From Acidobacteriota bacterium (GTDB lineage: Bacteria > Acidobacteriota > Thermoanaerobaculia > Gp7-AA8): a DNA stretch of 64,000 nt. The stretch lies in the NCBI GenBank assembly GCA_021781455.1, contig JAJXWV010000084.1:62001-126000 (forward strand). The letters are read 5' to 3'. The translations under genes were made by a program, and so were the position numbers. This document shows, in pieces, positions 9,429-43,965 of the stretch. The notes beneath the pieces were generated by a model that was given only the letters and a program-made list of their open reading frames with translations, did not search any database and was not told the DNA's origin. The number at the start of each line of letters is the position of its first letter. Positions within the stretch are counted from its first letter, which is position 1.

Positions 9429-10814
9429 ATGTTTCGACCTCTCGCGCTCCTTGTGACCGTGATTCTTGCTGCCTGCACCGTCGGTCCGAACTATCACAAG
9501 CCGGCCGTCGCCGTACCCGATCAGTTCTATGGTGCGAGCGGCGCGTCGGCGGCTTCCATTGCCGACCAGCGGTGGTGGGACGTCTTTCGCGACCCGACTC
9601 TGCGGTCGTTGATCGACGAGGCGCTGAAGAACGGATACGACGTGCGCATTGCAGCGGCGCGGGTCGAGGAGGCGCGGGCGCGGTACGGCATCGCCGGCGC
9701 GGCCCGAGTTCCAGCCGTCGGCTACGGGGCCAGCGTCGATCGCGGCCACACATCGACGTACGCGAATCCGAGCGATGTCACGGGAAGCCTGATCATCGCC
9801 AACGTCAACGTGTCGTGGGAAGCCGACCTGTGGGGTCGCATCCGGCGGCTCGACGAAGCGGCGCGGGCGCAGTACCTCGCGACGGAGGAGGGCAGAAGAG
9901 GCGTGATCCTGTCGCTCGTCTCCGAAGTGGCGTCGGCCTATTTCGATCTGCGCGAGCTCGACGAGGAGCTGGATATCGCCCGCCGCACACGCGCGTCATT
10001 CCAGGACACCTACGACCTCTTTCACCGCCAACTGGTGGGCGGGACCGCCTCGGCGCTGGAAACGTCCCGCGCGGAAGCGGCCCTGGCCAACGAGTCCGGC
10101 CAGATCCCGTTCCTCGAGCAGCAGATCGCCGCGAAGGAAAACCAGCTGAACTTTCTTCTCGGCCGCATGCCGGGACCGATCCCGCGCGGCGCGTCGCTCG
10201 GGGACCAGCCGGTCCCGCCGGACGTGCCGGCGGGACTGCCGGCCTCGCTTCTGTTGAGGCGGCCGGACGTCCGGCAGTCCGAGGAGCTCCTCATCGCGGC
10301 CAACGCCAACATCGGAGTGGCCGAGGCGGCGTTCTATCCGACGCTGAGCCTGACCGGGGTGTTAGGCGGGCAGAGCCCGGAGCTGTCGACGCTGCTCAAC
10401 AGCGGCCGGGCCTGGACGATCGGTGCGAGCCTGCTCGGCCCGATTTTCCAGGGCGGACGGCTCCGCGCCCAGAAGCAGGTCGCACTCGCCCAGTTCGAGG
10501 AGGCGAAGCTCGCCTACGAGCAGGACGTGACGAACGCCCTCGGTGAAGCGTCGACGTCGATCGTGGCGCTGCAGAAGTTCGGCGAAGAAGAGCAGCAGCG
10601 CGCGCGCGCCGTTGCCGCCGATCGCGAGGCGGTGAGGCTGGCCACGCTTCGGTACGAGTCCGGCCTGTCCGCCTACTTCGAGGTCCTCGATGCCATGCAG
10701 CAGCTCCTGTCCGCCGAAAACGAGCTGGCCCGGACGCGCCGCGACCGGCTGGTGGCGCTGACCCAGTTGTACCGCGCGTTAGGCGGCGGCTGGAACCAGC
10801 AGGGAGCGCGCTAG
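9429..10814 (+). CDS. NodT/OprM-type outer-membrane efflux lipoprotein (TolC family)
   Basis: 461 aa. A type II signal with lipobox LAAC is followed by TVGPNYHKPAV, the hallmark N-terminus of OprM/NodT proteins. Then come two repeated TolC-type alpha-helical and beta-barrel segments, seen as SWEADLWGRIRR, the long helix around LVSEVASAYFDLRELDEELDIA, RRPDVRQSEELLIAANANIGVAEAAFYPTL and GGRLRAQ. It forms the outer-membrane channel for the pump encoded upstream. I place the start at 9429, where the signal peptide begins. The frame is also open back to an ATG overlapping the pump stop (TAATG at 9279), but that would put 50 unlikely residues before the signal. Confidence 0.9.
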   Translation: MFRPLALLVTVILAACTVGPNYHKPAVAVPDQFYGASGASAASIADQRWWDVFRDPTLRSLIDEALKNGYDVRIAAARVEEARARYGIAGAARVPAVGYGASVDRGHTSTYANPSDVTGSLIIANVNVSWEADLWGRIRRLDEAARAQYLATEEGRRGVILSLVSEVASAYFDLRELDEELDIARRTRASFQDTYDLFHRQLVGGTASALETSRAEAALANESGQIPFLEQQIAAKENQLNFLLGRMPGPIPRGASLGDQPVPPDVPAGLPASLLLRRPDVRQSEELLIAANANIGVAEAAFYPTLSLTGVLGGQSPELSTLLNSGRAWTIGASLLGPIFQGGRLRAQKQVALAQFEEAKLAYEQDVTNALGEASTSIVALQKFGEEEQQRARAVAADREAVRLATLRYESGLSAYFEVLDAMQQLLSAENELARTRRDRLVALTQLYRALGGGWNQQGAR

Positions 10815-10890
10815 GGACGCGCTGCAGCGCGTCCGCAGCTCTCGTGCCTTCCCACCGCCCGGAGTTGCGGACGCGCTGCTGCGCGTCCCT
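10814..10890. repeat. Repeat family B, copy 1 (long hairpin around GGACGCGCTGC)
   Basis: Arms GGGACGCGCTGCAGCGCGTC and GCGGACGCGCTGCTGCGCGT flank a CTCTCGTGCCTTC spacer. Other copies are at 22211, 24363, 33566 and 41993. Here it directly follows the stop of the efflux channel gene and may act as a transcription end or mRNA-stabilising hairpin. Confidence 0.8.
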
Positions 10891-10901
10891 GCCGCCGGGT
10901 T

Positions 10902-11309: not shown

Positions 11310-13916
11310 ATGGGTGGTTCCCAGCCAAAGCTTCGCCAGCGCTTCGGTCCCTTTGAGCTGGACCCCGTCGAGGGGAGCCTCACGCGCAATGGAACCCGCG
11401 TGCGGTTACAGGACCTGCCGTTTCGCCTGCTCGTCCTTCTCGTGGAAAGGCAGGGCGAGATCGTGACGCGCGAGGAAACCCGCCAGCGCCTCTGGCCCGA
11501 GAACACGTTCGTCGAGTTCGACAACAGTCTGGGCGTGGCGATTCGGAAGGTCCGGGAGGCTCTGCACGACGATGCCGAGAGTCCGCGATATGTCGAGACC
11601 ATCCCTCGCCGCGGCTATCGGTTTCTGGCGCCGGTCACGGAGAGCGGCACGGCCCCCACCACACCCGCCCGCCCTCACGCCCGCCCGTCGAGCGCGATCG
11701 TTCTCGTGTCGCTCGTGGCGCTCGCGCTGTTGCTCGTTTACTGGGGCATTCTCTATTTTCGTGCGCCGGCGGCGCCGCAGACCCCCGTTCGCCGCTCTGT
11801 CGCCGTTCTTGGCTTTCGCAATCTGCCGGGGGACCCTGGCGACAACTGGCTGTCTGCAGCCTTCTCCGAGATGGTCAGCACGGAGCTCGCGGCCGGTGGC
11901 GAACTGCGCCTCATTTCCGGCGAGGATGTGTCCCGCGCCAAGAGCGAGCTTCCTCTCGCCGACGAGGACAGCCTGGCCCGCTCCACGCTGGCGCGTTTGC
12001 GGGCCAATCCGGGCGCGGACGTAGTCGTGCTCGGCTCGTATACGCGCCTAACGGGCGAGGAGCCGAATCGCATCCGTCTCGATCTTCGTGTGCAGGACAC
12101 CGGCACGGGTGCGACCATCTTCGAACAGGCCTTTACTGGCAGGCAGGAGAATCTGTTCGACCTGGTCAACCAGGCGGGCGCCCGTCTTCGAGAGAGCCTC
12201 GGTGTGAGGCCTCTTACTCCGCAGATCGCGGCGGCGGCCCGTGCCGCACTTCCTTCGAATCAGCCGGCGCTGCAGTTCTTCACGGAAGGCCTGGCTCGCT
12301 CAAGGGCATTCGATTTTCTAGGCGCCCGCGACGTGCTGATCAAGGCTATCGCCGCCGACCCCGACTATCCGCTGGCCCACTCGGCGCTGGCCGATGCCTG
12401 GGATCACCTTGGCTACAATGCCAACGCTCTGGCCGAGACCCGGCGCGCGATGCAGCTCTCCGACAAGCTCTCGCGTGAGGAGCGCCTGCTCGTCGAGGGC
12501 CGATACCGCGAGGAGATCAACGACTGGCCCGGCGCGGTTGCCAGCTATCAAGATCTGTTCAACCTCTTTCATGACGACCTCGACGATGGACTGCGGCTGG
12601 CTTCGGCTCAACGCCGGGTGAACCCCGCGGACTGCCTGCGTACGTTGGAGACTCTGCGCCACCTTCGTTATCCCGCCGGCGCCGATCCCCGTATCGATAT
12701 GGAGGAGGCCTCGGCCTGGATCAACCACGATCTCGCCAAGGCGCATGCCGCCGCGGAACGCGCCGTGGTCAAAGGAAACGCGCAGGGCTCGCATCTTCTG
12801 GTGGCTCGTGCATACGGAATCCTCTGCCAGCAGGGAACCGACGGCGGGACATCCTCGACAGAGGCCATCAGCGCCTGCGAGAACGCCCGGGAGAGCTACG
12901 CCGCCGCCGGAGATCGTAACAACGAGGCGCGCACGTCGAACGACCTTGCCGGCGTCTACTTCGAGCAGGGCGACCTCGCGCGGGCGGAAGCGATGTGGCG
13001 CGAGGCCATCCCCAAGTTTCGTGAGGTCGGCGACACCGAGGGGCTCGCGGCCGCTTCCAACAACCTGGGCGATGTCTTCCTGCTCCAGGGAAATCTGGAC
13101 GAGGCGAAGAGATCTCTGGAGCTATCGATTCCGGACTATCAGGCCATCGAGGACAAGGACGGCATCGCGCGCGCCCTCAACGATCTCGGCGACGTGTCGC
13201 GCCAGAAGGGTGATCTCGAGGCGGCGTTGACGACGTACCAGCAGGCCAGGGCCACCGCCGATGAGATCAACGACAAGAGCGTGATCGCCGACGTGCTGGA
13301 CGGGCGCGGAGATGTGCTCGCCGATCAGGGCGATCTGGCGGCGGCGCGGAAGTCTTACCTGGAATCGCTGGCATTGCGAAAGCAAGCTGGAGAAAAGCAG
13401 ACCGCTGCGGAGACCAATGTTGCACTGGCACGACTTGCCATCGAGGAGGGGAACGCTTCTCAGGCCGAGACAGCCATGCGCGAATCCATGCGCCAATTTC
13501 ATCAGGAGCGTCAGTCCGATGATGAACTGGCCGCGATCACCGTCCTGATTCAGGCGCTCTGCACGGAGGGAAAGATCGCGGCGGCACAGGCGGAGGTCGA
13601 GGCGGCGCTCCCGCTTTCGACGGAGTGCCAAAACCATCGTATCGGCCTCGAATTCGCGCTGGCCGCGGCGCGGGCGACGCTCGCGTCGGGGCAGCCCGAA
13701 TCCGCGAAGCGGCGGTTGGAGCAGATCGTTCAGGATGCACGCGCGCACCGATTCGCGGGTCTTGAATTCGAGGCTCGCCTGGCATTGGCGGAGCTGTCGA
13801 AGGCGGGCGGCCAGACCGCGGCGGCGCGCAAGCAACTCGAGTCCCTGGAGAACGCGGCGCGTGCGAAGGGCTTCGGCCTCATCGCTCGCAAGGCTTCGGC
13901 CGCGCGCACCAGCTGA
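11310..13916 (+). CDS. Membrane-anchored winged-helix regulator with TolB-like and TPR domains (CadC/ToxR-like)
   Basis: 868 aa. Residues ~10-110 form an OmpR/ToxR-type winged helix: FGPFELDPVEGSLTRNGTRVRL, LQDLPFRLLVLLVERQGEIVTRE, and the recognition and wing part ending ETIPRRGYRFLAPV. A single membrane helix (IVLVSLVALALLLVYWGILYF, ~129-150) follows, then a TolB/FlgO-like segment (VAVLGFRNLPGD) that in related proteins precedes the repeats. From about residue 310 there are many TPR units (e.g. ALNDLGDVSRQKGDLEAALTTYQQA). The DNA-binding part would be cytoplasmic and the TPRs outside, so it may relay an envelope signal directly to promoters. There is no receiver domain. The nearby repeated upstream modules are plausible but unproven targets. 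Confidence 0.88.
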   Translation: MGGSQPKLRQRFGPFELDPVEGSLTRNGTRVRLQDLPFRLLVLLVERQGEIVTREETRQRLWPENTFVEFDNSLGVAIRKVREALHDDAESPRYVETIPRRGYRFLAPVTESGTAPTTPARPHARPSSAIVLVSLVALALLLVYWGILYFRAPAAPQTPVRRSVAVLGFRNLPGDPGDNWLSAAFSEMVSTELAAGGELRLISGEDVSRAKSELPLADEDSLARSTLARLRANPGADVVVLGSYTRLTGEEPNRIRLDLRVQDTGTGATIFEQAFTGRQENLFDLVNQAGARLRESLGVRPLTPQIAAAARAALPSNQPALQFFTEGLARSRAFDFLGARDVLIKAIAADPDYPLAHSALADAWDHLGYNANALAETRRAMQLSDKLSREERLLVEGRYREEINDWPGAVASYQDLFNLFHDDLDDGLRLASAQRRVNPADCLRTLETLRHLRYPAGADPRIDMEEASAWINHDLAKAHAAAERAVVKGNAQGSHLLVARAYGILCQQGTDGGTSSTEAISACENARESYAAAGDRNNEARTSNDLAGVYFEQGDLARAEAMWREAIPKFREVGDTEGLAAASNNLGDVFLLQGNLDEAKRSLELSIPDYQAIEDKDGIARALNDLGDVSRQKGDLEAALTTYQQARATADEINDKSVIADVLDGRGDVLADQGDLAAARKSYLESLALRKQAGEKQTAAETNVALARLAIEEGNASQAETAMRESMRQFHQERQSDDELAAITVLIQALCTEGKIAAAQAEVEAALPLSTECQNHRIGLEFALAAARATLASGQPESAKRRLEQIVQDARAHRFAGLEFEARLALAELSKAGGQTAAARKQLESLENAARAKGFGLIARKASAARTS

Positions 13917-13935: not shown

Positions 13936-14874
13936 TCAAATCCGGCCGGCGAGCGTCCGCGCCAGAGGCTTGATCGCTTCGACGCTGCAGGGGCAGGTCA
14001 TGTAAAGGATGCGCACCAGCTTGTCGCCCTTGCGGAACATCAGGATCGAGCCGGCCGTGTCGAAGGCCTGGTCACCGATGCCCTCAATGGGTGCTTCCTT
14101 CGGGCCGATGTTGCCCAGCACGTTCTGGTTCAGCTTCAGCTGGAAATCCGCCGCGTTGTTGTCGACGGAGAAGGCGAGAACGGGGACCTTTCCGTTGCTC
14201 TGCAGGTCGCTGTCACGAGGGTGTTCGGCCTGATAGGACTTGAAGAATCCGCCGGCGATCGTCTGGAGCATCTGCTGCTGGTTCCCGTCGGCTCCTTTTT
14301 GCGCGGCCATGGCCGACATGTGCTTCGCGGTCATGTCGGCCTGCGTTCCGGCGGCGAGGTAGGAGCAGCCGTCGTCGGTGGGCTGGATGCCGATGATGGG
14401 CACGCCGATGGCCTGACCCACCTCGTCCGTGCTGAGCATCCTGCAGTAGTCGATGTGCGCGCTCGTCGTGGCGGAGCTGTCCGCGCTGGCGGCGTGATCG
14501 CTCGCGCTCGAGTCGCTCGTGTTGGAAACACTCGTACTCGAACCGGTCGTGCCGGAACCGGTCGTGTTCAACAGACTCTCTTTCACTTCGTGTACTTTCT
14601 GGCTGACGCGATGCGCCACGTAGTAGATGCCTCCCGCAGCCAGCGCGGCGCCGACGAAGAGAATGACGACCAGGGCGATGGCGAGCTTGGCGAGCGGACT
14701 GCTCTTCGCGGCCGTGGCCGCCGCCGGCTGGTATGCGGGCTGCTGCTGTGCCTGCTGCGCGGCGGGTTGTGCCTGCTGCGCGCTCGGTTGTGCCTGCTGT
14801 ACGTTCGCGCCGCAGCCGGGACAGAACGCCCCTCCACTCAACGGTGATCCACAGGAACTGCAGAAGCTCGCCAT
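13936..14874 (-). CDS. Zinc-ribbon membrane protein with extracytoplasmic domain
   Basis: 312 aa of unrecognised function. An N-terminal zinc ribbon (CSSCG ... CPGCG, cysteines near 5, 8, 18, 21) is followed by a Gln/Ala-rich linker, one membrane helix (about 63-90, LAIALVVILFVGAALAAGG) and a Ser/Thr-rich stretch. The C-terminal domain begins about HIDYCRMLSTDEVGQAIGVP and ends RILYMTCPCSVEAIKPLA; it looks like a lipoprotein-type sensor or binding domain. The start at 14874 has an AAAGGAGGG site. The first ~27 codons and the upstream DNA are almost identical to those of the gene at 19787-20998, although the rest of the two proteins is unrelated. This implies a recent duplication or conversion of the 5' end. 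Confidence 0.75.
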   Translation of the reverse strand: MASFCSSCGSPLSGGAFCPGCGANVQQAQPSAQQAQPAAQQAQQQPAYQPAAATAAKSSPLAKLAIALVVILFVGAALAAGGIYYVAHRVSQKVHEVKESLLNTTGSGTTGSSTSVSNTSDSSASDHAASADSSATTSAHIDYCRMLSTDEVGQAIGVPIIGIQPTDDGCSYLAAGTQADMTAKHMSAMAAQKGADGNQQQMLQTIAGGFFKSYQAEHPRDSDLQSNGKVPVLAFSVDNNAADFQLKLNQNVLGNIGPKEAPIEGIGDQAFDTAGSILMFRKGDKLVRILYMTCPCSVEAIKPLARTLAGRI

Positions 14875-14923
14875 GCTCGACCCTCCTTTGATTGATTTGT
14901 GAGGACCAATGTGGGCATCGCGG

Positions 14924-15012
14924 CGCGGGCGGTCAATGAAACAGCGCTTTAAGCGTGGACTAACAGCGAAGTGTCAATTGCACAGCAGGTTGTGGAGGCT
15001 CATTAACTGTCC
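14924..15012 (-). promoter_or_regulatory. Shared upstream module, copy 1 (of zinc-ribbon gene at 13936)
   Basis: About 90 bp nearly identical to 21045-21133 and clearly related to 21749-21840. On the minus strand it contains TTGACACTTCGCTGTTAGTC, with a TTGACA that could be a -35 box and a weak CTTAAA 17-18 bp later. GTTAAT and CTGTGC words lie upstream. It stands about 50-140 bp before the start codon. Confidence 0.55.
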
Positions 15013-15084
15013 AGGAGAGCACGCGGACGCCTCCTTCGGCGATGCGCCCTGGAACAGGAGCAGCCAGGACGCCGGGAAGTTGAT

Positions 15085-15124
15085 TCGGGATCGCGTTGGG
15101 ATGGCGCTTTGTCGTTCCGTCTCC
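15085..15124 (-). pseudogene. Duplicated scrap of the lipoprotein gene start
   Basis: This stretch matches the first codons of the lipoprotein gene at 17702-17947 (GACAAA(C/G)CGCCATCCCAACG), but the start codon is ACG instead of ATG and the match stops after ~40 bp. It directly follows the lipoprotein gene at 15125-15703, just as the intact copy follows a scrap of that gene at 17957-18046. So the two loci are the halves of one duplication. Confidence 0.5.
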
Positions 15125-15703
15125 CTACTTGCCCGGTCGCGTTGCATACGGCAGGTCGAATTTGCCGTCCGTGATCGCCGCGGTCTCATGGTCCTCATCG
15201 CTCACGTGAATCACGCGCCCGGAGAAGGTCCCGGTGACCCGGGTCGCGCTGTTGCTGTCGATCGAGACCGTCATTTCGTCGTTGCGGTACTGGTCGTCCC
15301 CGCCGCCCGTCACCGCGAGCGAGTATTTCGGATCGCTCGTGCCGCGGATTGTCGTCGTGCCGTGATCGGCAACCGTGAAATGCAGGTGAGGCCACGCGCC
15401 GGGATAGTGACTGATGTCGTTCAATTCGAACGTGATGAGCCCATCGCCCTTGTGCCTGGCCACGTTGACGATCTGGAGCATGTCCGTGTCCGAGCCTGAC
15501 GCCGGCTTGCCGTTGAAGACGAACGAGAAGCTGGTCTTCAAGACGTCGCCACTGGATGCTCCGCGCGATGCGGAGCTCGTCGCCGGAGATCCGGCGCTGG
15601 TTGCTGCATCCGTGCCGCTCGAGCTCCCTGCTTCTCGCGAACATGCTGTGATCGCGACAAGAATGCCAGTCAAAACGATGCTTCGGACCCGTGGGATGTT
15701 CAT
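15125..15703 (-). CDS. Hypothetical lipoprotein
   Basis: 192 aa, not recognised. The N-terminus MNIPRVRSIVLTGILVAITAC is a lipoprotein signal with the modified cysteine in ITAC. A Ser/Ala/Gly-rich tether of ~35 residues follows, then a compact beta-rich domain (KTSFSFVFNGKPASGSDTDM, ITFELNDISHYPGAWPHLHF, VTGTFSGRVIHVSDEDHE). Its layout is like small secreted beta-sandwich domains of unknown role. The start at 15703 is used because it begins the signal; the frame is open 24 codons further but with no export signal there. A decayed fragment of a second copy is at 17957-18046. Confidence 0.65.
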   Translation of the reverse strand: MNIPRVRSIVLTGILVAITACSREAGSSSGTDAATSAGSPATSSASRGASSGDVLKTSFSFVFNGKPASGSDTDMLQIVNVARHKGDGLITFELNDISHYPGAWPHLHFTVADHGTTTIRGTSDPKYSLAVTGGGDDQYRNDEMTVSIDSNSATRVTGTFSGRVIHVSDEDHETAAITDGKFDLPYATRPGK

Positions 15704-15816
15704 GATCGTCTCCCCTCTCCAGCTTGTGAGGCCGGTGGCGTTCGAAGGCTCGCCACACGTCGCAAAGAAACTCATGGCTGTCTGATCAGGATTTGCTCAT
15801 CGTTACGGGTGAGCGC

Positions 15817-16530
15817 CTAGCCACCACCGTCGGGTGGCTCCGAGGGGTTTGTATTGCCAACGGTCGCATCTGGCACCGACGCATCGGGTGGATCGTCCTG
15901 CGGGTAATCCTCCGGGCTGCCGGTGTTGAACGTCTCTTTGACGGTGTCCTTTGCGGCGTCCTTCAAGCCTTCCTCTACACCTTCCTTGGCGGCCGTCCAC
16001 AGCGGGTTGCCGACACCCTCGGCTACTCCCTCCAGACCCCCGGTGGCCAGACCACCGGCAATCGCGTTGCCGACCGGGTCGTCCTCCAGAGGCGGGTCGG
16101 GTGACTGGGGTGCGTCTACTTGACCTGTAGTCGTGGTCCCATCAGGTCCCTGGGTGGTCTGGGTTCCATCCGGCCGAGTCGTCGCCGTGAACCCGTCGGG
16201 ATCCTGGACGGTCCTCGTGCCGTCCGTCCCCTGAGTCACCTTCGTCCCGTCCGGATAAGTCGTCGTAGTGGGTCCCGTGGCGCTGGTCGTCGTCACCGTT
16301 CCGTCCGGAGCTTTGGTCGACGTCGTCCCATCCGGATTGGGCCATGTAAGGCTGCCATCTGGACCGGCGGTCGTGCCGGGAGGATACAGCTCTGACATCG
16401 GTGTGAGTCCGCCAAGCGCTCCCACCGCCCCTGCTGCACCGCCCGCCATTCCCGCCGCGCCCGGAATCACGTTGCCACTGCTCGCGCAGCTCGCGCACCA
16501 GTGCATCACGATCGCGAAGATGTCGATCAT
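15817..16530 (-). CDS. Hypothetical Thr/Pro/Asp/Gly-repeat protein
   Basis: 237 aa. After a short hydrophobic, Cys-containing start (IFAIVMHWCASCASS) and a Gly/Ala-rich segment, residues ~50-140 are repeats of the form PDGT(x)TT (PDGTTSTKAPDGTVTTT, YPDGTKVTQGTDGTRTVQ), resembling RHS/YD-like or cell-surface spacer repeats. The C-terminal part is acidic and Pro-rich. Repeats of this kind are usually extracellular, but no clear signal peptide is seen. It overlaps the PrsW-like gene by 4 bp (ATGA at 16527-16530) and so is translated with it. It might be cargo or substrate of that protease, which is only inference. Confidence 0.6.
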   Translation of the reverse strand: MIDIFAIVMHWCASCASSGNVIPGAAGMAGGAAGAVGALGGLTPMSELYPPGTTAGPDGSLTWPNPDGTTSTKAPDGTVTTTSATGPTTTTYPDGTKVTQGTDGTRTVQDPDGFTATTRPDGTQTTQGPDGTTTTGQVDAPQSPDPPLEDDPVGNAIAGGLATGGLEGVAEGVGNPLWTAAKEGVEEGLKDAAKDTVKETFNTGSPEDYPQDDPPDASVPDATVGNTNPSEPPDGGG

Positions 16531-17702
16531 GCCGTACCTCCCGCGCTCGCGCGCGACATCGAGACCCTTCCCGGTGCCTGAGCGGCCGCAAGCAGCATCG
16601 ACCGCCGCTGCGCCTCAATCGGCGACAAGGGAAACCACGACTTCGGCGCGACCACACCACCCACCACGCGCCACTCGAGCGCGATCGCGTAGGCGATACC
16701 GCCAATCAACATCAGTGAGGTCAATCGTCCGCCGAGCGTGAGCACGATCGAGATCTTTGCGACGACCCCGTTGAGACGACCGGTGAGGATCGCGTTCTGC
16801 GAGCAATGCTCCATGAGCACCGCGGCGATCGCAGCCACCGGCGCAATCCACGCACGCGACTGCGGCCGTCGATACATCAGCCCGAACGAGACACCGAGGA
16901 CGATCAGTGCCGTGTGCACCAAGTGGCCACTCTGCGCCACCGTCCATCCGTAGACCACGCCCTTTCCTTCGCTTGGGAAAAGAAGCGAGAGCAGCGGATT
17001 CGCGGTGAGTGAAAAGCCTCCGCGCCCGAGCGCCGCGTCCTCGAAGAGACTGAAGCCCGCTCCGGTCCAGGCGCCGATCAACGTAAGGTCGAGCACGGAT
17101 GGTCGCGTCTCCGTGCGCCGCATCGCCATCCTGAGCACGATCGCAACAGGAAGAACCTTGAGAGCCTCCTCGGTGATCGGCACCCACACTGCCGTCGCGA
17201 GGATGCTCGACGTTCCGAGCTTCTCCACCAGCGGCGTGCCTACCAGTCGCGCCAGCGCCGTGATGCCGAGCAAACCGGTGAGTCCGACGCCGACGAGTGC
17301 ACGCCAGCCGATCGTGCGCACCGGGCCGGCGACGAATATCAACAGCCCGAGCGTCCAGAGCTGCGCGGCGAAATCCATCGCGAACGGATGCAATCCCGCC
17401 GCCTTCGTAATGCGCGGGAGCGACGCGAGCACCGTCAGCCCCGAGATCGCGAGCGCCACCGTCGACACGAGGGTCATCGTACGCATACGCGCGGCGGACG
17501 ATGCCGAGCGCGCGGCATACGACATCGCCACCTTGAGACCGATCCCGGCGCAGACGAGCACGATCAGCGTCGCCGGCCCATCCGGCAGCACGCCCGCGAA
17601 CCGCGCGAGCACCGCGCCGACCGACACCGCGACGATCGCGCCCCCGACGATCGCCAGCGTGCGATCGCCGCTCGCCGGCGATCGAGTGACCACGGCGCTC
17701 AT
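16527..17702 (-). CDS. PrsW family intramembrane metalloprotease
   Basis: 391 aa, mostly membrane helices (about eight to ten). The sequence has the PrsW/CPBP-type active-site features: WVPITEEALKVLPV (EExxK), GAGFSLFEDA in a later helix (FxxxE(D)) and SGHLVHTALIVLG with a likely metal-binding histidine. PrsW in Bacillus cleaves an anti-sigma factor in the membrane; many homologues are of unknown target. Its start overlaps the stop of the upstream lipoprotein (TGATG at 17700-17704), and its end overlaps the PDG-repeat gene, so all three are one translationally coupled operon. Two zinc-ribbon single-pass membrane proteins encoded on either side are possible substrates, again by inference. Confidence 0.75.
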   Translation of the reverse strand: MSAVVTRSPASGDRTLAIVGGAIVAVSVGAVLARFAGVLPDGPATLIVLVCAGIGLKVAMSYAARSASSAARMRTMTLVSTVALAISGLTVLASLPRITKAAGLHPFAMDFAAQLWTLGLLIFVAGPVRTIGWRALVGVGLTGLLGITALARLVGTPLVEKLGTSSILATAVWVPITEEALKVLPVAIVLRMAMRRTETRPSVLDLTLIGAWTGAGFSLFEDAALGRGGFSLTANPLLSLLFPSEGKGVVYGWTVAQSGHLVHTALIVLGVSFGLMYRRPQSRAWIAPVAAIAAVLMEHCSQNAILTGRLNGVVAKISIVLTLGGRLTSLMLIGGIAYAIALEWRVVGGVVAPKSWFPLSPIEAQRRSMLLAAAQAPGRVSMSRASAGGTA

Positions 17703-17947
17703 CAGAGGTTCCCGCCGATGGCCGTGTCACCGACAGATGCGGCGGCGGCCTGCGAAGCAGCGGACGCGGACTGCGCGGCAGCGCCCGGTTGTGTGGTGGA
17801 GCCGCCCTTTGAGCACGCAGCGAGTGCGCACGGCACGGCGAGCGAGGCGATGAGGGCAGGGACAAAGCGCGTTGTGGTGTGTATGACCTGGCTCTTCCTT
17901 GAAACGGAACGCGGGTGCAGCATCGCGTTGGGATGGCGGTTTGTCAT
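17702..17947 (-). CDS. Small hypothetical lipoprotein
   Basis: 81 aa. A long basic N-region (RHPNAMLHPRSVSRKSQ) leads into FVPALIASLAVPCALAACSK, with a lipobox (LAAC), then a Ser/Ala/Gln-rich tail that ends AAASVGDTAIGGNL. The ATG at 17947 follows GGAGAAGGA; an internal ATG 8 codons later is possible. There is no known domain; the mature part is only ~40 residues and may be a tether or pilot. The stop overlaps the PrsW start. The first 40 bp recur as a scrap at 15085-15124. Confidence 0.6.
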   Translation of the reverse strand: MTNRHPNAMLHPRSVSRKSQVIHTTTRFVPALIASLAVPCALAACSKGGSTTQPGAAAQSASAASQAAAASVGDTAIGGNL

Positions 17948-17956
17948 TCCTTCTCC

Positions 17957-18046
17957 CTACTTGCTCCGGCGTGACGCGTACGGAAGGTCGAACTTGCCGT
18001 CCGTGATCGCCGCGATCGCGTGGTCGTCGTTGCTCACGTACAGTCC
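17957..18046 (-). pseudogene. 3' fragment of a second copy of the lipoprotein at 15125-15703
   Basis: The minus strand reads VSNDDHAIAAITDGKFDLPY then ASRRSK and a stop, closely matching the end of the 15125-15703 protein (VSDEDHETAAITDGKFDLPY, ATRPGK). Upstream the similarity stops abruptly, and no start or signal is present. It is a left-over of a segmental duplication. Confidence 0.7.
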
Positions 18047-18104
18047 GCAGCCGTGGTTATGACGCGATGCACTTCCCGCACGGTCATGGCGTCGAGCTCC
18101 ATGA

Positions 18105-19790
18105 TCAGCCGCAACCCGGGTTGCAGGCCTTGAGCGTCAGCGTGTAATGCGCCTTGTTGCCTGCGGCCGGGCGATCTTGGACATCGTTCTTCTCGATCAC
18201 CATCGACTTGCCGGACTGCTTCACCGGATAGTCGAAGACGAAGTGTTGCAGCACGAAATGCGCGTTCTTGTAGGGCAGCGTGAAATGACCCCACACGGGG
18301 AGACCAAGGGTCAGCGGCGTCATCACCACGTAAACGGTGTGGGCGGTCGTGTATGTGTCGTTGAAATCCGAACGCGCGTCCTCGAGCTTGAAACTGATCC
18401 TGCCGTCGGCCAGCTGGCCGCTGACCGGAATGTCGAACGAGGTGGGCGAGGTCAGGTTGGACCAGCCGCGACCTTCCCAACTCACGTTAGGCGTCGCAAC
18501 CGGCGCGATGTCAATGGTCTTCACCGTGCCGCCGCGTATGAGCTTGGCACCGCTCGTGTGCCAGAAATTTTGGCGGTAGCCGAAGTGGGTGGCGGCGCCG
18601 ACGAACTGTCCGCTCAACGCGACGGCGCGGCCAGCGGCGTCCTTCGGGTAACGTAGGGTCAATTTGCCCGCGATCGAGACGCTGAATCCCCACCACTCTT
18701 CCTGTTTGTCGCTGGTGAGGAAGTGCGCAACCATCGTCGCGCTGAACGGCCCTTCGAATTTCTGACAGTACTGGCTGAACAGGTTCTGCTGTGCTTGCGT
18801 CGCGACGTCGACCACCATGCTGGCCAAGGTGGTCATCAAGCCAAACGGCCCCTCGACCACCGAGGTCACGGCGGGGCCGAGCTTGATCACCTCGGTAACC
18901 GCGAATTGCGTGTTCGCGCCGGTCTGATCCAGGCCCGGAATTTTCGATGCGATTCTCGGCGCCGCCAGATCATTGGCGAAGGCGTCGAAGATCTGCAATG
19001 GCATCGCGGCGAAGTTGAGCGCTCCCGACACCGCATTGAGGCGCTCGATCGTCTGGTCGATCGAGTCACAATGGCCCAGCTTCCTCGTGCTGTCGGCGAT
19101 TTCCTTGTCGAGCGCTTCCTTGTGTTGCCTGGCTTGCTCGTTCCAGATATCGAGCTTGTCATAGGTGGGTTGCAGCACCGGAGTCGTTTCCGGGTGCCGA
19201 GCCTGCAGGTCCGCGAATAACGCCAGCGCCTTGCTCAGATATGCCGACTGCTGTGGCACTTGCTGCATTCTTGTCGCAAGCGAGTCGAGCTTGCTTTGGG
19301 TCTGCGTCCTGGCCGGCGAATCCGGAATGCTGTCGACTGCGCGCTTGATGTCGTCCGTCAGCCTGACGATGTCGGTCGCGAGAGCCTTCTGGTTGGTGAT
19401 GATGTCCTGGCTTGTTTGCGCGACTTGGCGAACGATGAACGTCGCCTGAGCCGGGTTCCCCTTGGGCCCGAGTCGCGCGCTGACGGCATAGCTTCCCGGA
19501 AGCCTGGTCTGCCTGAAGTGGAGCGAGTATTGACCGGCGGTACTGGGCATCGCGTTCAGCGTGACCCTCGCGCCGGCCGGTGGCGCGACGGTGATGATCA
19601 CAGGAGCTCCGGGTTGCGAATAGCCAAGGCCGGAAAGCGTGACGGCGCCGTTGACCGATATCGTTCGCGGCGAGACCTCCAGCGTTACGCTCGGCCCGCT
19701 GGTATCCTGGGCGAAAGCGGGCAGAGCGATGGCGAGTATCAGGATGCAACCGAGCGAGCACGACGTGGCCATGAACCGATATTTGCTCAT
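18105..19790 (-). CDS. Hypothetical secreted protein with Ig-like N-domain and helical region
   Basis: 561 aa, not recognised. A signal peptide (MSKYRFMATSCSLGCILILA..PAFA) is followed by an Ig/Big-like beta domain, residues ~30-120 (VTLEVSPRTISVNGAVTLSG, AGQYSLHFRQTRLPGSYAV). A helical, partly coiled-coil region (~125-270: DIVRLTDDIKRAVDSI, ARQHKEALDKEI) comes next, then a mixed domain to the end (CNPGCG). It should be periplasmic or exported. Its start overlaps the stop of the upstream zinc-ribbon gene by 4 bp (ATGA, 19787-19790), indicating a two-gene operon and a shared role. Confidence 0.65.
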   Translation of the reverse strand: MSKYRFMATSCSLGCILILAIALPAFAQDTSGPSVTLEVSPRTISVNGAVTLSGLGYSQPGAPVIITVAPPAGARVTLNAMPSTAGQYSLHFRQTRLPGSYAVSARLGPKGNPAQATFIVRQVAQTSQDIITNQKALATDIVRLTDDIKRAVDSIPDSPARTQTQSKLDSLATRMQQVPQQSAYLSKALALFADLQARHPETTPVLQPTYDKLDIWNEQARQHKEALDKEIADSTRKLGHCDSIDQTIERLNAVSGALNFAAMPLQIFDAFANDLAAPRIASKIPGLDQTGANTQFAVTEVIKLGPAVTSVVEGPFGLMTTLASMVVDVATQAQQNLFSQYCQKFEGPFSATMVAHFLTSDKQEEWWGFSVSIAGKLTLRYPKDAAGRAVALSGQFVGAATHFGYRQNFWHTSGAKLIRGGTVKTIDIAPVATPNVSWEGRGWSNLTSPTSFDIPVSGQLADGRISFKLEDARSDFNDTYTTAHTVYVVMTPLTLGLPVWGHFTLPYKNAHFVLQHFVFDYPVKQSGKSMVIEKNDVQDRPAAGNKAHYTLTLKACNPGCG

Positions 19791-20998
19791 GGCTTGGCCG
19801 CCTTCTTACTCAACACCACCGCGGTCTCGCCGGTCTTCTTGTCGATGAGGACCATCACGCTGCGCGTGTCCTTCGTGCCATCGGGAGGCAGGAAGAGAGT
19901 CAGGTGCGCGGCGCGGGCCTTCGCCACCCCGGGCAACGCCTGCTGCTGCTGCCCGCCCGACAACGCCTTGAGCATGCCGGCCAGGGGTGAATCCGGCGAC
20001 GCCGACGTGCTGGCCTGTTTCGCAGCCTTGTCCGTTTCTTCCGCGGAAGGCAGCGCCATCGCCGTCCAGTTTGCCGGCAGATGGGCCCGGTACCACGCGG
20101 CCACCCTGTCGGGATCGTCCCTGGTGAGGATCGTTGCGACGGTGGAGTTGCTGTCCGAGACGCCGCCGCCGGGAGGCACGACGATCGCGCTCGCGACCCT
20201 GTCCTCGTTTGGATAGCGCGGCAGCCCGCTTCTGTCGTAACTGAGATCGCGCGCGCCGACCACGCGGTCGCCCGGTGCATCCGGCTTGATCGGCAGGTCG
20301 GGATCGCCGGGACCGAGCTGCGACGATGCACCTGAGCCGGCCGGTACGGGCGCGGTGCCGGTGCTACCGGCGGACGCGGTCGCGATTTCCGGCTGGCTCT
20401 GGACTGCGCCGGGCTGCATCGTGCCGCTGCCGCCGCCGCCCCCGTCGTCGATCTGGCCGCCGCCGCCGTTGACCGTTGCCGCAGTGCCCTTCGAGACGGT
20501 CTTGCCACTGGCATCGTTCAGTCCACCGCTCGCGAGATCGCCGCTGCCCGTGCCTCCGCCTCCCAGCGATGCCGGGGCGCCGCTGCCGTTCACATTCGCG
20601 CCTGTGCCGCTGACGCTGCCATCGCCGCCGCCTTTGGCGCCGAGCTTGACGGGGCTGCCCGTGCCCGGGGTCTTCTCGAGGCCCGTGCCGCCTCCAGCGG
20701 CGGGTCCGGTCCCGGGGTCGGGTTCGGCGGCAAGGCCCGCCTGGGAACACGGCGTGACGGGATGATGACGTGACCTCCAAGACGCCAGCAGGAAGCCAAG
20801 GACGAAAGCCACGGTGACGGCGATCAGCCAGGCCATCGTTCGTTTACGACCTCCACCCGCCGCTGCCGCTGGTGACTGGGATGCAGGCTGCTGTGCCTGC
20901 TGCGCGGCGGGTTGTGCCTGTTGCACGTTCGCGCCACAGCCGGGGCAGAACGCTCCTCCACTCAACGGTGATCCACAGGAACTGCAGAAGCTTGCCAT
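19787..20998 (-). CDS. Zinc-ribbon membrane protein with Gly/Ser-rich and extracytoplasmic domains
   Basis: 403 aa, unknown function. The N-terminal zinc ribbon CSSCGSPLSGGAFCPGCG is identical to that of the gene at 13936-14874. It is followed by a Gln/Ala linker, a basic GGRKRT and one membrane helix (MAWLIAVTVAFVLGFLLASW, ~55-74). Residues ~80-190 are low-complexity Gly/Ser/Thr. From ~230 there is a globular part (GARDLSYDRSGLPRYPNEDR, RDDPDRVAAWYRAHLPANW, TLFLPPDGTKDTRSVMVLID) that would lie outside the membrane. It is the first gene of an operon with the secreted protein at 18105. It shares its 5' end and upstream module with its distant partner gene, so the two are probably expressed together. 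Confidence 0.72.
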   Translation of the reverse strand: MASFCSSCGSPLSGGAFCPGCGANVQQAQPAAQQAQQPASQSPAAAAGGGRKRTMAWLIAVTVAFVLGFLLASWRSRHHPVTPCSQAGLAAEPDPGTGPAAGGGTGLEKTPGTGSPVKLGAKGGGDGSVSGTGANVNGSGAPASLGGGGTGSGDLASGGLNDASGKTVSKGTAATVNGGGGQIDDGGGGGSGTMQPGAVQSQPEIATASAGSTGTAPVPAGSGASSQLGPGDPDLPIKPDAPGDRVVGARDLSYDRSGLPRYPNEDRVASAIVVPPGGGVSDSNSTVATILTRDDPDRVAAWYRAHLPANWTAMALPSAEETDKAAKQASTSASPDSPLAGMLKALSGGQQQQALPGVAKARAAHLTLFLPPDGTKDTRSVMVLIDKKTGETAVVLSKKAAKP

Positions 20999-21044
20999 GC
21001 GCGATCCGCCTTATCGATTGATGAGCGCCAATGTCGGCATCCCT

Positions 21045-21133
21045 GCGCGGGCGGTCAATGAAACAGCGCCTTAAGCGTGGACTAACCGCGAAGTGTCAAT
21101 TGCACAGCAGGTTGTGGAGGCTCCTTAACTGTC
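21045..21133 (-). promoter_or_regulatory. Shared upstream module, copy 2 (of zinc-ribbon gene at 19787)
   Basis: Nearly identical to 14924-15012. On the plus strand it carries CCTTAAGCGTGGACTAACC, GTGTCAATTGCACAGCAGGT and CCTTAACTGTC; on the minus strand the TTGACA box is retained. The match continues into the first ~27 codons of the gene. Confidence 0.55.
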
Positions 21134-21194
21134 GAGGGGAAGGGCAGCGCCGTTGAACGTCAGCGTGGAAAGGCGGCGGTTCGGCGAGATCCCG

Positions 21195-21617
21195 CTATTT
21201 GCCCGTATAGGGTCCGAATTTCTTCGCATCCCACACCAGGCCGATGTTGGTGCCCGGCGAGAAGCGATTGCCCGGCTCGACATCCACGGTCGCGCCATTG
21301 TGCGTGTAGAAGATATGTGCGCCGTCCGGGGTGGTGTGTTCCCCATTCTGATCACGCAGGTTCTTGCGATACCAGACGCACACCACATTGACGGAATCCT
21401 TCGTTGTGATGACCACCGCGCCTGCGCTCTGCTTGTCGATGTGAGTCACGTGGGCTGTGTAGAAAGGCACGGGAGGTGCGGCGTTCGCACGACCCGCAAA
21501 GGCTGTGGTGCAGGCGGCAGCGATGACGAACGCGACAGCCAGTGACGTACGATTTTTGGGTCTGCTCCTGGCGATCTTTCGTGAGCGGATAGTGTTTCGA
21601 GTCTCGAATCGATTCAT
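21195..21617 (-). CDS. Hypothetical secreted protein
   Basis: 140 aa, not recognised. A basic N-region (MNRFETRNTIRSRKIARSRP) and hydrophobic segment TSLAVAFVIAAACTTAFAG end in a likely AxA cleavage site (RANA|APP). The mature ~95 residues contain VVITTKDSVNVVCVWYRKN and end LVWDAKKFGPYTGK; the strands suggest a small beta fold, perhaps binding a ligand or another protein. I chose 21617 because of GAGGAG six bases before it. An ATG at 21713, also with a GAGGA site and positioned like the starts of the other two module-bearing genes, would add 32 residues. It has its own copy of the upstream module. Confidence 0.65.
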   Translation of the reverse strand: MNRFETRNTIRSRKIARSRPKNRTSLAVAFVIAAACTTAFAGRANAAPPVPFYTAHVTHIDKQSAGAVVITTKDSVNVVCVWYRKNLRDQNGEHTTPDGAHIFYTHNGATVDVEPGNRFSPGTNIGLVWDAKKFGPYTGK

Positions 21618-21748
21618 CTCCAACTCCTCAATGTCAGCCGGGCGTTCGCGATCCCGAGTCGTTGCGATTGCATCGACTCGGACCAGGAATGCGACCTTTG
21701 CCCGAGTCGGCATCGTTGTTCCTCACTGACTCGGCCAATCTGAGCAAC

Positions 21749-21840
21749 GCGGCGCGCGGGGTCAAGGAAACAGAGCTTTAAGTCTGGACTAACAGCGAAG
21801 TGCCCGCCGCACAGCAGGTTGTCGTCGCTCCTTAACTGGC
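21749..21840 (-). promoter_or_regulatory. Shared upstream module, copy 3 (of secreted gene at 21195)
   Basis: Diverged copy of the modules at 14924 and 21045. TTTAAGTCTGGACTAACAGC, GAAGTG, GCACAGCAGGTTGT and CCTTAACTGG are kept in order and spacing, while the intervening bases differ. Conservation of only these words points to them as the functional parts. Confidence 0.5.
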
Positions 21841-22125: not shown

Positions 22126-22210
22126 AACGAACGCCAGAGTCCGCATAGACCGCCCTCGCTGCCGTAGAGGCGGAGCTGGGCCGGTTGGAAGAGCGAATGT
22201 CCTCCCCGCA

Positions 22211-22290
22211 GGGACGCGCAGCAGCGCGTCCGCAACTTTCGTCTTCTCCGCCACGCCCCAGGAGCTGCGGACGCGCTGCTGCGCGTCCCT
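22211..22290. repeat. Repeat family B, copy 2
   Basis: GGGACGCGCAGCAGCGCGTC and its inverse GACGCGCTGCTGCGCGTCCC, separated by ~37 bp, 125 bp before the cold-shock gene. Confidence 0.85.
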
Positions 22291-22414
22291 GCGGGTCATT
22301 TCACGGGCGCGGAATTCGCAGTGCCGATGACGCGTTGTCCGCAGCATCAGTGATTTGCCAGCTCGAGACGCCACACGTTTGGATCTCCGAAGGCAGCACG
22401 GAAAGGAGATTCAA

Positions 22415-24328: not shown

Positions 24329-24362
24329 GTTGCCTCCGGAATGAGATCGCTGGTCGCAGGTA

Positions 24363-24440
24363 GGGACGCGCAGCAGCGCGTCCGCAGCTCTCGTGCCTTC
24401 GTCACGGCGGGAGTTGCGGACGCGCTGCTGCGCGTCCCTA
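24363..24440. repeat. Repeat family B, copy 3
   Basis: AGGGACGCGCAGCAGCGCGT and GACGCGCTGCTGCGCGTCCC flank a CTCTCGTGCCTTCGTCACGG spacer. It lies inside the ABC transporter operon, between ATPase and permease. Confidence 0.85.
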
Positions 24441-24464
24441 CGCCCTGTCTTCTGCGCTCTCTTC

Positions 24465-33562: not shown

Positions 33563-33565
33563 GGC

Positions 33566-33662
33566 GTAGGGGCGCACAGCAGTGCGCCCGCAACTTTCGT
33601 CAGCCTCGCGCCGCGTCCAACTGGTCGGGCGAAGGCTGCGGACGCGCTGCTGCGCGTCCCTA
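33566..33662. repeat. Repeat family B, copy 4
   Basis: TAGGGGCGCACAGCAGTGCG and GCGGACGCGCTGCTGCGCGT flank an extended spacer. It fills the 121 bp between the molybdenum hydroxylase and amidohydrolase genes, inside the presumed operon. Confidence 0.8.
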
Positions 33663-41845: not shown

Positions 41846-43965
41846 GGTGCTTGCATTACCTCCGGAGAACGGCAGTTGATGAAATTGGGATGGCGCGGGT
41901 CGAGAGTGGTGCGGCGCACGAAATCCATGAGGGCGAACGGCCAGAGGTCGATCCGGTCCCCGCTCGCGGTGACCCGAATTGATCGAGAGTCCGCAGGGGC
42001 GCGCAGCAGTGCGTCCCCCTCCAGGGCTGCGGACGCGCTGCTGCGCGTCCCTACGCGCTCGATGAGGACTTCGAATTCCGGTCCGCAGTAGACGACGCCC
42101 TGCGCATCGACAGTCAGGCCGTATTCGCGGCCGTCGATTCGGCCTAACACCCGGGCTTTGGCATCGCCCTGTGCGAGGAAGAAGCCGTCCAGCGGATCGA
42201 GGCGCCAGCCCGCTTCGTCGCCGAAGAGGCGGAATTTGGCCTGGTTGGGCTTACCGTCGTCGGGACAGAAGACTTCGCAGTTGCCACACTCGTTGCAGAG
42301 CTCGACGTAGATCGCGATCTGATGGTTGCGCGACAACGACGTCTGCCCGCCTTCGACGCGCTCCCAGCGATCTCCGCTGCGGACGAGGTGAGCGCGGGGA
42401 ATGCTGTTCTCACCGGCGTCGAAACGGCTGATGGCGTCATTCGGACAGGCCGGGATGCAGAGGTCGCACGTCGCGCAGTCGAAAAGCGTCAGCGGATGGG
42501 TGGTCTTGCCGGGTGCGTGGGCGCTTCGCTCGCTGTGATAGCGCGGATCGGAGTCGAGCGACTCGACGTACTTCTCGGTGTTGGCGATCGTCGCCTGTGC
42601 CACCCAGTGCCGGTAAATCTCGGGTGGGATCGCGCGATCGATCCTCTCGTTGTCCGCAAGGGCGGCGCGGCAGAGACGCGCATCCTCGTCCGGGAGGGAG
42701 AGCGAGTCGAGTGCAATCTCCGCTTCGCTGCAGCCGCGGATGATGAAATCGCCGATCGAGCTCGCGTGAACGCGGTCCATCCCATGAGAGAGCTCGGTCG
42801 CGTAGCTCTGCAGACGGCCGTAGCCGCCCTGCTTGAGGAGGTCCGTGCAGACGGTCACCGGCACGAGCCCGAGGCTCACCGCGTCGGGATAGTTCGAGCG
42901 GTCGATGCCCGCGGAGAACGAGATCGGGATCGAGTCGCCGAAGGTCTGCCTGAAGCGCCGCACGAGGTACATGGCCAGGACGTGCAGGGGCGGGCCGGAG
43001 AGGTACGACACTTTCTCGGACGGCGGGAGAAAATCGCCGCGGTTGTTCACGATCAGCGTGTTCGTCAGCTTCACGCCGAACGTGCGTCCGAGCTCTTTGG
43101 CGCGCCGCTGCAGGCGCTCGACGATGGTCACGGCTTCATCCCACTTCGCGTCGTTGTCGAAGGCGCTGGCCGGCGCCTCGATCTCCGTGAAGCCGAGACG
43201 GTCGTGAAGGATCTCGTGGACCTCGTCGTAGCCGAGCAGCATCGGATTGAGCTTGACCGTGCAGTTCACGCCGGCTTCGCTCATCAGGAACTCGACGATG
43301 CGCTCGATCTCCGCGACAGGGCAACCGTGAAACGTGCTCAGCGTGACCGTGTCCGCCACCTGTGGCGCGAACTCCGCCTCCGCGAGACGGCGCCAGCGCG
43401 CCGGAACCTCGCGGCGGAGCTTGTCGATCATCGGCCGCGCATCGAGCATCCCCCGCATGAACGCCACCACGCGCTCACTGCGGATGCCGGCCAGGTCGTA
43501 GCCGACGCTCATGTCGTAAATCGTCCGTCTGAACGGCGGCTGGATGGGGAGGGCGCCCGACGCCGTGAGCATCTCGATCAGCATCGCGGCCTTCACGTAC
43601 TCCTCGAGCGACTGCTCGAGCTTGAGCTCCTGCGACCATTCGATGTTGTAGCCCACCGTGCGCGCGTCGATGCAGGGACGCGGGATGGTCAGCTCGTCGA
43701 GCACCTGGACGGTCTTCAGCTCCAGGATGCGTGCGCCGGCGAGCCACGACAGGACGATGTTCTGCGCCATCTGCGTGTGCGGGCCGGCGGCCGGGCCGAG
43801 CGGCGTCGATGCGCGATGGCCGTGAAACTCCACCGAGGTGTCGTGTCGTGGATCGCCGAGAAAGAACTTGCGGGCCGGCAGATCGAACACGCTCGCGCAG
43901 CGCTCGAGCTCTTCGAAAGCTCGGGCCACGAGAGCGGATAACCCGAGCGGCGCCAGCGCAGACAT
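41842..43965 (-). CDS. ygfK: Fe-S oxidoreductase of the YgfK type (putative selenate reductase subunit), shortened
   Basis: 707 aa. The N-terminal ~430 residues are a dihydroorotate dehydrogenase-like barrel (STPLGPAAGPHTQMAQNIVL, ELKTVQVLDELTIPRPCIDA, TVTLSTFHGCPVAEIERI), close to the start of E. coli YgfK. The C-terminal part has ferredoxin motifs CATCDLCIPACP and CNECGNCEVFCP. E. coli YgfK (about 1030 aa) has a GltD-like FAD/NAD(P)H domain between these parts, and here it is missing. The protein may therefore need another flavoprotein as electron partner, perhaps the FAD-less XdhD-like protein. The start at 43965 is the methionine of MSALAPLGLSALV, which aligns with the family N-terminus. 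A family B repeat is embedded near the C-terminus (41993-42053). Confidence 0.82.
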   Translation of the reverse strand: MSALAPLGLSALVARAFEELERCASVFDLPARKFFLGDPRHDTSVEFHGHRASTPLGPAAGPHTQMAQNIVLSWLAGARILELKTVQVLDELTIPRPCIDARTVGYNIEWSQELKLEQSLEEYVKAAMLIEMLTASGALPIQPPFRRTIYDMSVGYDLAGIRSERVVAFMRGMLDARPMIDKLRREVPARWRRLAEAEFAPQVADTVTLSTFHGCPVAEIERIVEFLMSEAGVNCTVKLNPMLLGYDEVHEILHDRLGFTEIEAPASAFDNDAKWDEAVTIVERLQRRAKELGRTFGVKLTNTLIVNNRGDFLPPSEKVSYLSGPPLHVLAMYLVRRFRQTFGDSIPISFSAGIDRSNYPDAVSLGLVPVTVCTDLLKQGGYGRLQSYATELSHGMDRVHASSIGDFIIRGCSEAEIALDSLSLPDEDARLCRAALADNERIDRAIPPEIYRHWVAQATIANTEKYVESLDSDPRYHSERSAHAPGKTTHPLTLFDCATCDLCIPACPNDAISRFDAGENSIPRAHLVRSGDRWERVEGGQTSLSRNHQIAIYVELCNECGNCEVFCPDDGKPNQAKFRLFGDEAGWRLDPLDGFFLAQGDAKARVLGRIDGREYGLTVDAQGVVYCGPEFEVLIERVGTRSSASAALEGDALLRAPADSRSIRVTASGDRIDLWPFALMDFVRRTTLDPRHPNFINCRSPEVMQAP
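41993..42053. repeat. Repeat family B, copy 5, inside the YgfK-like coding sequence
   Basis: GGGACGCGCAGCAGCGCGTC-type arms occur as a compact hairpin with a short spacer. Read in frame on the minus strand it gives [20 protein letters not shown], a run without the character of the flanking protein. The reading frame stays open across it. Confidence 0.8.

Follow-up and report, generated by a model that had tools for sequence, protein, structure and literature searches.

The eight minus-strand genes between positions 13936 and 21617 of the window (the whole 64,000-nucleotide stretch analysed, from an Acidobacteriota genome) fall into two conserved units, with some local additions besides. Unit 1 comprises members of three envelope protein families, here termed A, B and Z, and unit 2 comprises a PrsW-type intramembrane metalloprotease and the repeat protein PDG encoded next to it. 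The original prediction of an unnamed system in which PrsW cuts the zinc-ribbon membrane proteins of the block is half right: the unnamed envelope set with PrsW is real, whereas PDG, as the sole constant partner of the protease (4/4 loci) with an overlapping gene, is a likelier substrate than the zinc-ribbon proteins. The reading that we favour, at somewhat less than an even chance, joins the two units: PrsW would act on the coupled PDG in the membrane, A, B and Z would form an envelope set, and a promoter with a zinc ribbon would have been grafted onto part of that set locally. Substrates are known, to our knowledge, for few proteases of the PrsW family, and a coupled partner kept at four loci offers a concrete, testable candidate with a motif, outside a sigma/anti-sigma setting.

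All eight reading frames proposed for the block are indeed open, in the place and on the strand assigned to them (the start of Lipo216 was revised), and the overlaps claimed between genes are present as ATGA for ZnR2/Ig561, TGATG for Lipo81/PrsW and ATGA for PrsW/PDG. The protease (16527-17702) passes the PF13367 cut-off in a Pfam profile search (40.4 vs 23.5 bits, E 3e-10) and has the catalytic motifs ascribed to it, EExxK, FxxxED, GHxxH and EH; residues E178/E179/K182, E221, H260 and E298-H299 are invariant across the four block-type PrsW proteins, that of the window and its three relatives. A simple hydropathy scan gives 6-8 hydrophobic segments, the family norm being about eight transmembrane helices, and a search of solved structures returned spurious matches only.

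PrsW is followed by PDG (15817-16530 in the window), the start of which overlaps the end of PrsW by 4 nt (ATGA or GTGA), at each of the four loci, namely the window and three loci (L076, L077 and L078) from two Gemmatimonadota genomes, all on short MAG contigs. This overlap suggests translational coupling of the two genes. All four PDG proteins share an N-terminal WCA[ST]CA motif and a Gly/Ala-rich segment, followed by PDG repeats that resemble Tcp10_C (PF07202; 28.6 bits, below the cut-off of 36). In our preferred mechanism, PDG would be the intramembrane target of PrsW, which would act at or close to the motif and the Gly/Ala-rich segment, a stretch so weakly hydrophobic (19-residue maximum 1.2-1.6) that its membrane insertion is uncertain; the repeat-rich beta part would then be released outside the cytoplasmic membrane as a processed member of an envelope assembly. 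Alternatively, PrsW and PDG could be a pair that processes and exports a secreted repeat protein of antagonistic or adhesive function, with the envelope genes as surface partners. PrsW has been described as a releasing peptidase in hosts that include Gemmatimonadetes (PMC3482391), and PDG has long repeats and a C-terminus that varies between loci, the window protein differing from those of L077 and L078. However, the latter two have the same C-terminus, PrsW and PDG are encoded separately, no immunity gene was recognised, and the block proteins match no toxin domain in Pfam, NCBIfam, PADLOC or PHROGs and no PADLOC model of anti-phage defence, so that we consider an export pair quite improbable.

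The neighbours of the pair at the three other loci tie it to the envelope families. The gene order is A-PrsW-PDG at L076, where PrsW is 68% identical to the window protein and overlaps A by TGATG; D-PrsW-PDG at L077, where the D-like gene is a 3' end; and C-A-Yip1-PrsW-PDG at L078, the PrsW proteins of the last two loci being 34-38% identical to that of the window. Adjacency of A-, C- or D-type genes at 3/3 loci seems unlikely to be due to chance, although two of the loci belong to the same genome (G151), other contigs of which carry B. The envelope link of PrsW is thus real but rare. Block-type PrsW is present in 1/396 Acidobacteriota genomes, the window genome itself, and in 2/394 genomes of the Gemmatimonadota class; it is absent from 60 relatives of the window genome, and no further copy occurs among 179 genomes of that Gemmatimonadota family. 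No relatives of PrsW or Ig561 were found on plasmids.

The class of the window genome has many ordinary PrsW proteins, which are not close to the block PrsW, and none of the 30 PrsW loci inspected in relatives has PDG or zinc-ribbon neighbours. The other PrsW of the window genome (L032, on contig C37) and those of two class relatives (L033 and L037) adjoin STAS-type and RsbW-type (HATPase) genes, named by eye from their translations, which may reflect a conserved link between PrsW and a partner switch. In one family of the class (L013-L027), a RibF-like gene (GNFDGVHLGHQ) immediately precedes PrsW in almost all genomes, also as read by eye.

Unit 1 is part of a wider set. Ig561 (18105-19790), the B member, has a signal peptide, an Ig-like domain, a helical coiled-coil region and a large beta domain ending in KACNPGC. 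Structure prediction, which had been proposed as a check, bore out the Ig-like N-terminus (residues 35-121, resembling known folds generically); it was of low confidence elsewhere, and a fold search with the low-confidence model of the A domain gave no match. Outside the window, relatives of Ig561 (28-45% identical) were surveyed at 14 substantial loci in Gemmatimonadota, Acidobacteriota and one 'Deltaproteobacteria'-labelled MAG. B occurs in the window genome and two others among 149 genomes of its class, and in 9/394 genomes of the Gemmatimonadota class of genome G149. It is accompanied by A at 11 of the 14 loci, by C at nine (plus a C fragment in L048), by Z at two and by regulators at eight, and at none by a block-type PrsW, which weighs against the reading that joins the two units. 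Most A proteins are lipoproteins, with one or two DUF3558-like domains; C has an OmpA tail (PF00691) and is undetectable in the window genome, a further point against that reading; and D is a DUF4412 protein present at the B loci L041 and L054, while Z is found at L049 (order B-A-Z) and L081 (order A-Z-B); apart from ZnR1, ZnR2 and Ig561, assignments to A, C, D and Z come from alignments and a reading of translations.

The two zinc-ribbon proteins were placed in this set, with Ig561 as B, on the basis of an A-profile match and a Z homology. ZnR1 (13936-14874) has an N-terminal zinc ribbon, one transmembrane helix and a C-terminal half that belongs to a recognisable DUF3558-like family, which the first reading of the sequence had missed; a profile of A relatives built without ZnR1 matches its residues 118-311 with E 5.6e-15. 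ZnR2 (19787-20998) has the same N-terminal layout followed by a Gly-rich linker and a conserved C-terminal domain, and its transmembrane and C-terminal parts are homologous to the Z proteins of L049 and L081, both of which are ribbon-free.

BTAD regulators stand beside five B loci (L048, L050, L053, L079 and L081) and ECF sigma factors beside three: L054, with zf-HC2 and CHAT-TPR proteins; L083; and L084, with a kinase. Neighbours of the BTAD/SARP-TPR or ECF-sigma type, with or without a zf-HC2 anti-sigma factor or a kinase, fit a regulated envelope function. At L054 (2540-12144), one strand carries genes for CHAT-TPR, ECF sigma and zf-HC2 proteins, the latter two a possible sigma/anti-sigma pair, and then A-B-C-D-A'. 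Short remnants stand beside B at L048 (7735-7950) and L052 (9948-10124); they derive from C (OmpA tail only) and apparently from D, and point to erosion of the B operon in several lineages. Signal peptides, lipoboxes, OmpA tails and the co-occurrence of the families lead us to infer that A, B, C, D and Z may form an assembly in the periplasm or attached to the cell wall. As an envelope operon, A/B/C recurs in Gemmatimonadota and Acidobacteriota, and we found neither a name nor a function for it; our searches found no named system covering A/B/Z together with PrsW-PDG, and nothing relevant in the literature on DUF3558. The earlier proposal of an unnamed system therefore holds for the recurrence of A/B/Z across phyla and of PrsW beside A, C and D, and is not supported for the pairing of PrsW with zinc-ribbon proteins, which is limited to one genome.

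That pairing is explained by a local duplication. The shared upstream modules that had been claimed were recovered by sequence comparison within the window as three copies, all on the minus strand and beyond chance similarity. The copy of ZnR1 (14768-15018) and that of ZnR2 (20892-21140) are 89% identical over 251 bp (E 6e-92), and the copy before Sec172 (21735-21838) is 83% identical to the former and 79% to the latter (E 3e-20 to 4e-25). The module itself is about 104 bp long and begins in each copy at a sharp common 5' edge, CAGTTAAKGAGC; between ZnR1 and ZnR2 the similarity extends through the zinc ribbon, which is thus part of the duplicated segment, a point overlooked at first. No further copy exists in the 4.88-Mb genome. 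The ribbon is missing from every A and Z relative inspected, the former being lipoproteins and the latter plain single-pass proteins, and the promoter and ribbon segment was duplicated onto A and Z in the window genome alone. A neighbourhood survey, proposed as a check on the link of PrsW with zinc-ribbon proteins, accordingly found no recurrent pairing. A sigma-70 promoter scan of the block gave no match, and matches to Rfam were sub-threshold and of the chance type. An integron cassette (attC) reading of the module was rejected, as no copy folds better than shuffled sequences as DNA on either strand; the module core used against viral contigs was 14 bp, too short to be informative. Separately, REP-like dispersed palindromic repeats built on GGACGCGCAGCAGCGCGTCC occur at 22205-22295, 10813-10892, 24362-24442, 33565-33661 and 42021-42055.

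In the first 29 codons, the six nucleotide differences between ZnR1 and ZnR2 are without exception synonymous (p ~ 4e-4 if 28% of changes are silent), which indicates purifying selection on both ribbons since the duplication; the upstream part of the module is 87.5% identical. Recent gene conversion of the ribbon stretch is the alternative, but on its own it would not favour silent changes. The ribbons score 19.3 and 18.8 bits against DZR (PF12773), under the cut-off of 27.3, with the CxxC...CxxC pattern present, and their sequence conservation argues that they are functional. They would be cytoplasmic zinc domains that might serve to report on the outer parts and their state, and the shared promoter copies on A and Z probably co-regulate both. 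The grafted ribbons also illustrate clearly how duplication of a 5' module can give rise to new transmembrane proteins.

These features bear on the mechanism first proposed, in which PrsW would cut ZnR1 and/or ZnR2 outside the membrane, as it does RsiW, and the freed cytoplasmic ribbon would signal. With an N-terminal zinc ribbon, one transmembrane helix and an outer domain, both proteins are built like a PrsW substrate, selection acts on the ribbon, A-type proteins lie near PrsW in L076 and L078, and PrsW fused to Zn-ribbon domains has been reported (PMC3482391). However, at the other loci the A protein that neighbours PrsW is a lipoprotein and lacks a transmembrane helix, the absence of ribbons from the A and Z relatives examined confines the pairing to one genome, and no sigma or anti-sigma gene, zf-HC2 included, lies within the eight-gene block. 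A full-text literature search for PrsW with a zinc ribbon returned nothing relevant. We therefore regard cleavage of the ribbon proteins as unlikely and retain PDG as the preferred candidate.

The remaining genes are local additions. Lipo81 (17702-17947), a short lipoprotein, overlaps PrsW by the same TGATG as the intact A lipoprotein of L076, whose slot it occupies, and it may be a truncated A remnant. In front of it stands a fragment of a Lipo216 paralogue (17922-18039; the last ~27 codons and 3' flank), which is 85% identical to 15090-15207, the tail and 3' flank of Lipo216 (15125-15703). The latter is a beta-rich lipoprotein with lipobox ITAC and no relatives in the other loci. Sec172 (21195-21617), a small secreted protein with a signal peptide, encoded by the third of the genes that have a shared module in front, has no convincing family match and no homologue in related loci. 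These remnants within the block, one of Lipo216 and another probably of A, and the lack of the block in nearly all relatives would be expected of an island in decay, made up of unrelated envelope genes that were acquired horizontally and have stayed together through chance and local duplication. We hold such accretion to be unlikely as well, since the same families come together again in other phyla, the gene overlaps are conserved and the ribbons are under purifying selection. A broader version of the two-unit reading, offered tentatively and with more doubt than confidence, is an unnamed cross-phylum A/B/C/D/Z system, one branch of which would have acquired a dedicated PrsW that processes PDG, with the ribbons grafted here to give new transmembrane reporters.

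Comparison with known systems places the block close to several of them. With DUF3558 lipoproteins (PF12079) it is connected through the A family only: ZnR1 matches the A profile and an A relative in L050 passes the DUF3558 cut-off (36.1 vs 34.1 bits), whereas ZnR1 reaches 17.6 bits and has a transmembrane anchor with a zinc ribbon in place of a lipid. Envelope operons with ECF sigma/anti-sigma or SARP (BTAD) regulators are comparable in that such regulators flank homologous A-B-C operons in other genomes, whereas the window has only an OmpR-type winged-helix and MalT-like TPR regulator (11310-13916), tail to tail with ZnR1 and with a putative functional link. The classical case of PrsW is site-1 cleavage of RsiW (PMC3482391). 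The B. subtilis protease belongs to the same Pfam family as the block PrsW, whose catalytic motifs are intact, and single-pass proteins that carry a zinc domain on the inner side are encoded close by; the block differs in having no sigma/anti-sigma pair, in a zinc ribbon that is not zf-HC2, and in a repeat protein as the constant partner of the protease. Precedents both for repeat proteins handled by PrsW, in PrsW-dependent polymorphic toxins, and for PrsW-zinc-ribbon fusions are found in Zhang et al. 2012 (PMC3482391). In proposed toxin export, too, PrsW is paired with a repeat-containing protein that it would process, whereas the block has separate coupled genes, in four loci, in place of an N-terminal PrsW fusion, and its PrsW-PDG pair is embedded among envelope proteins.
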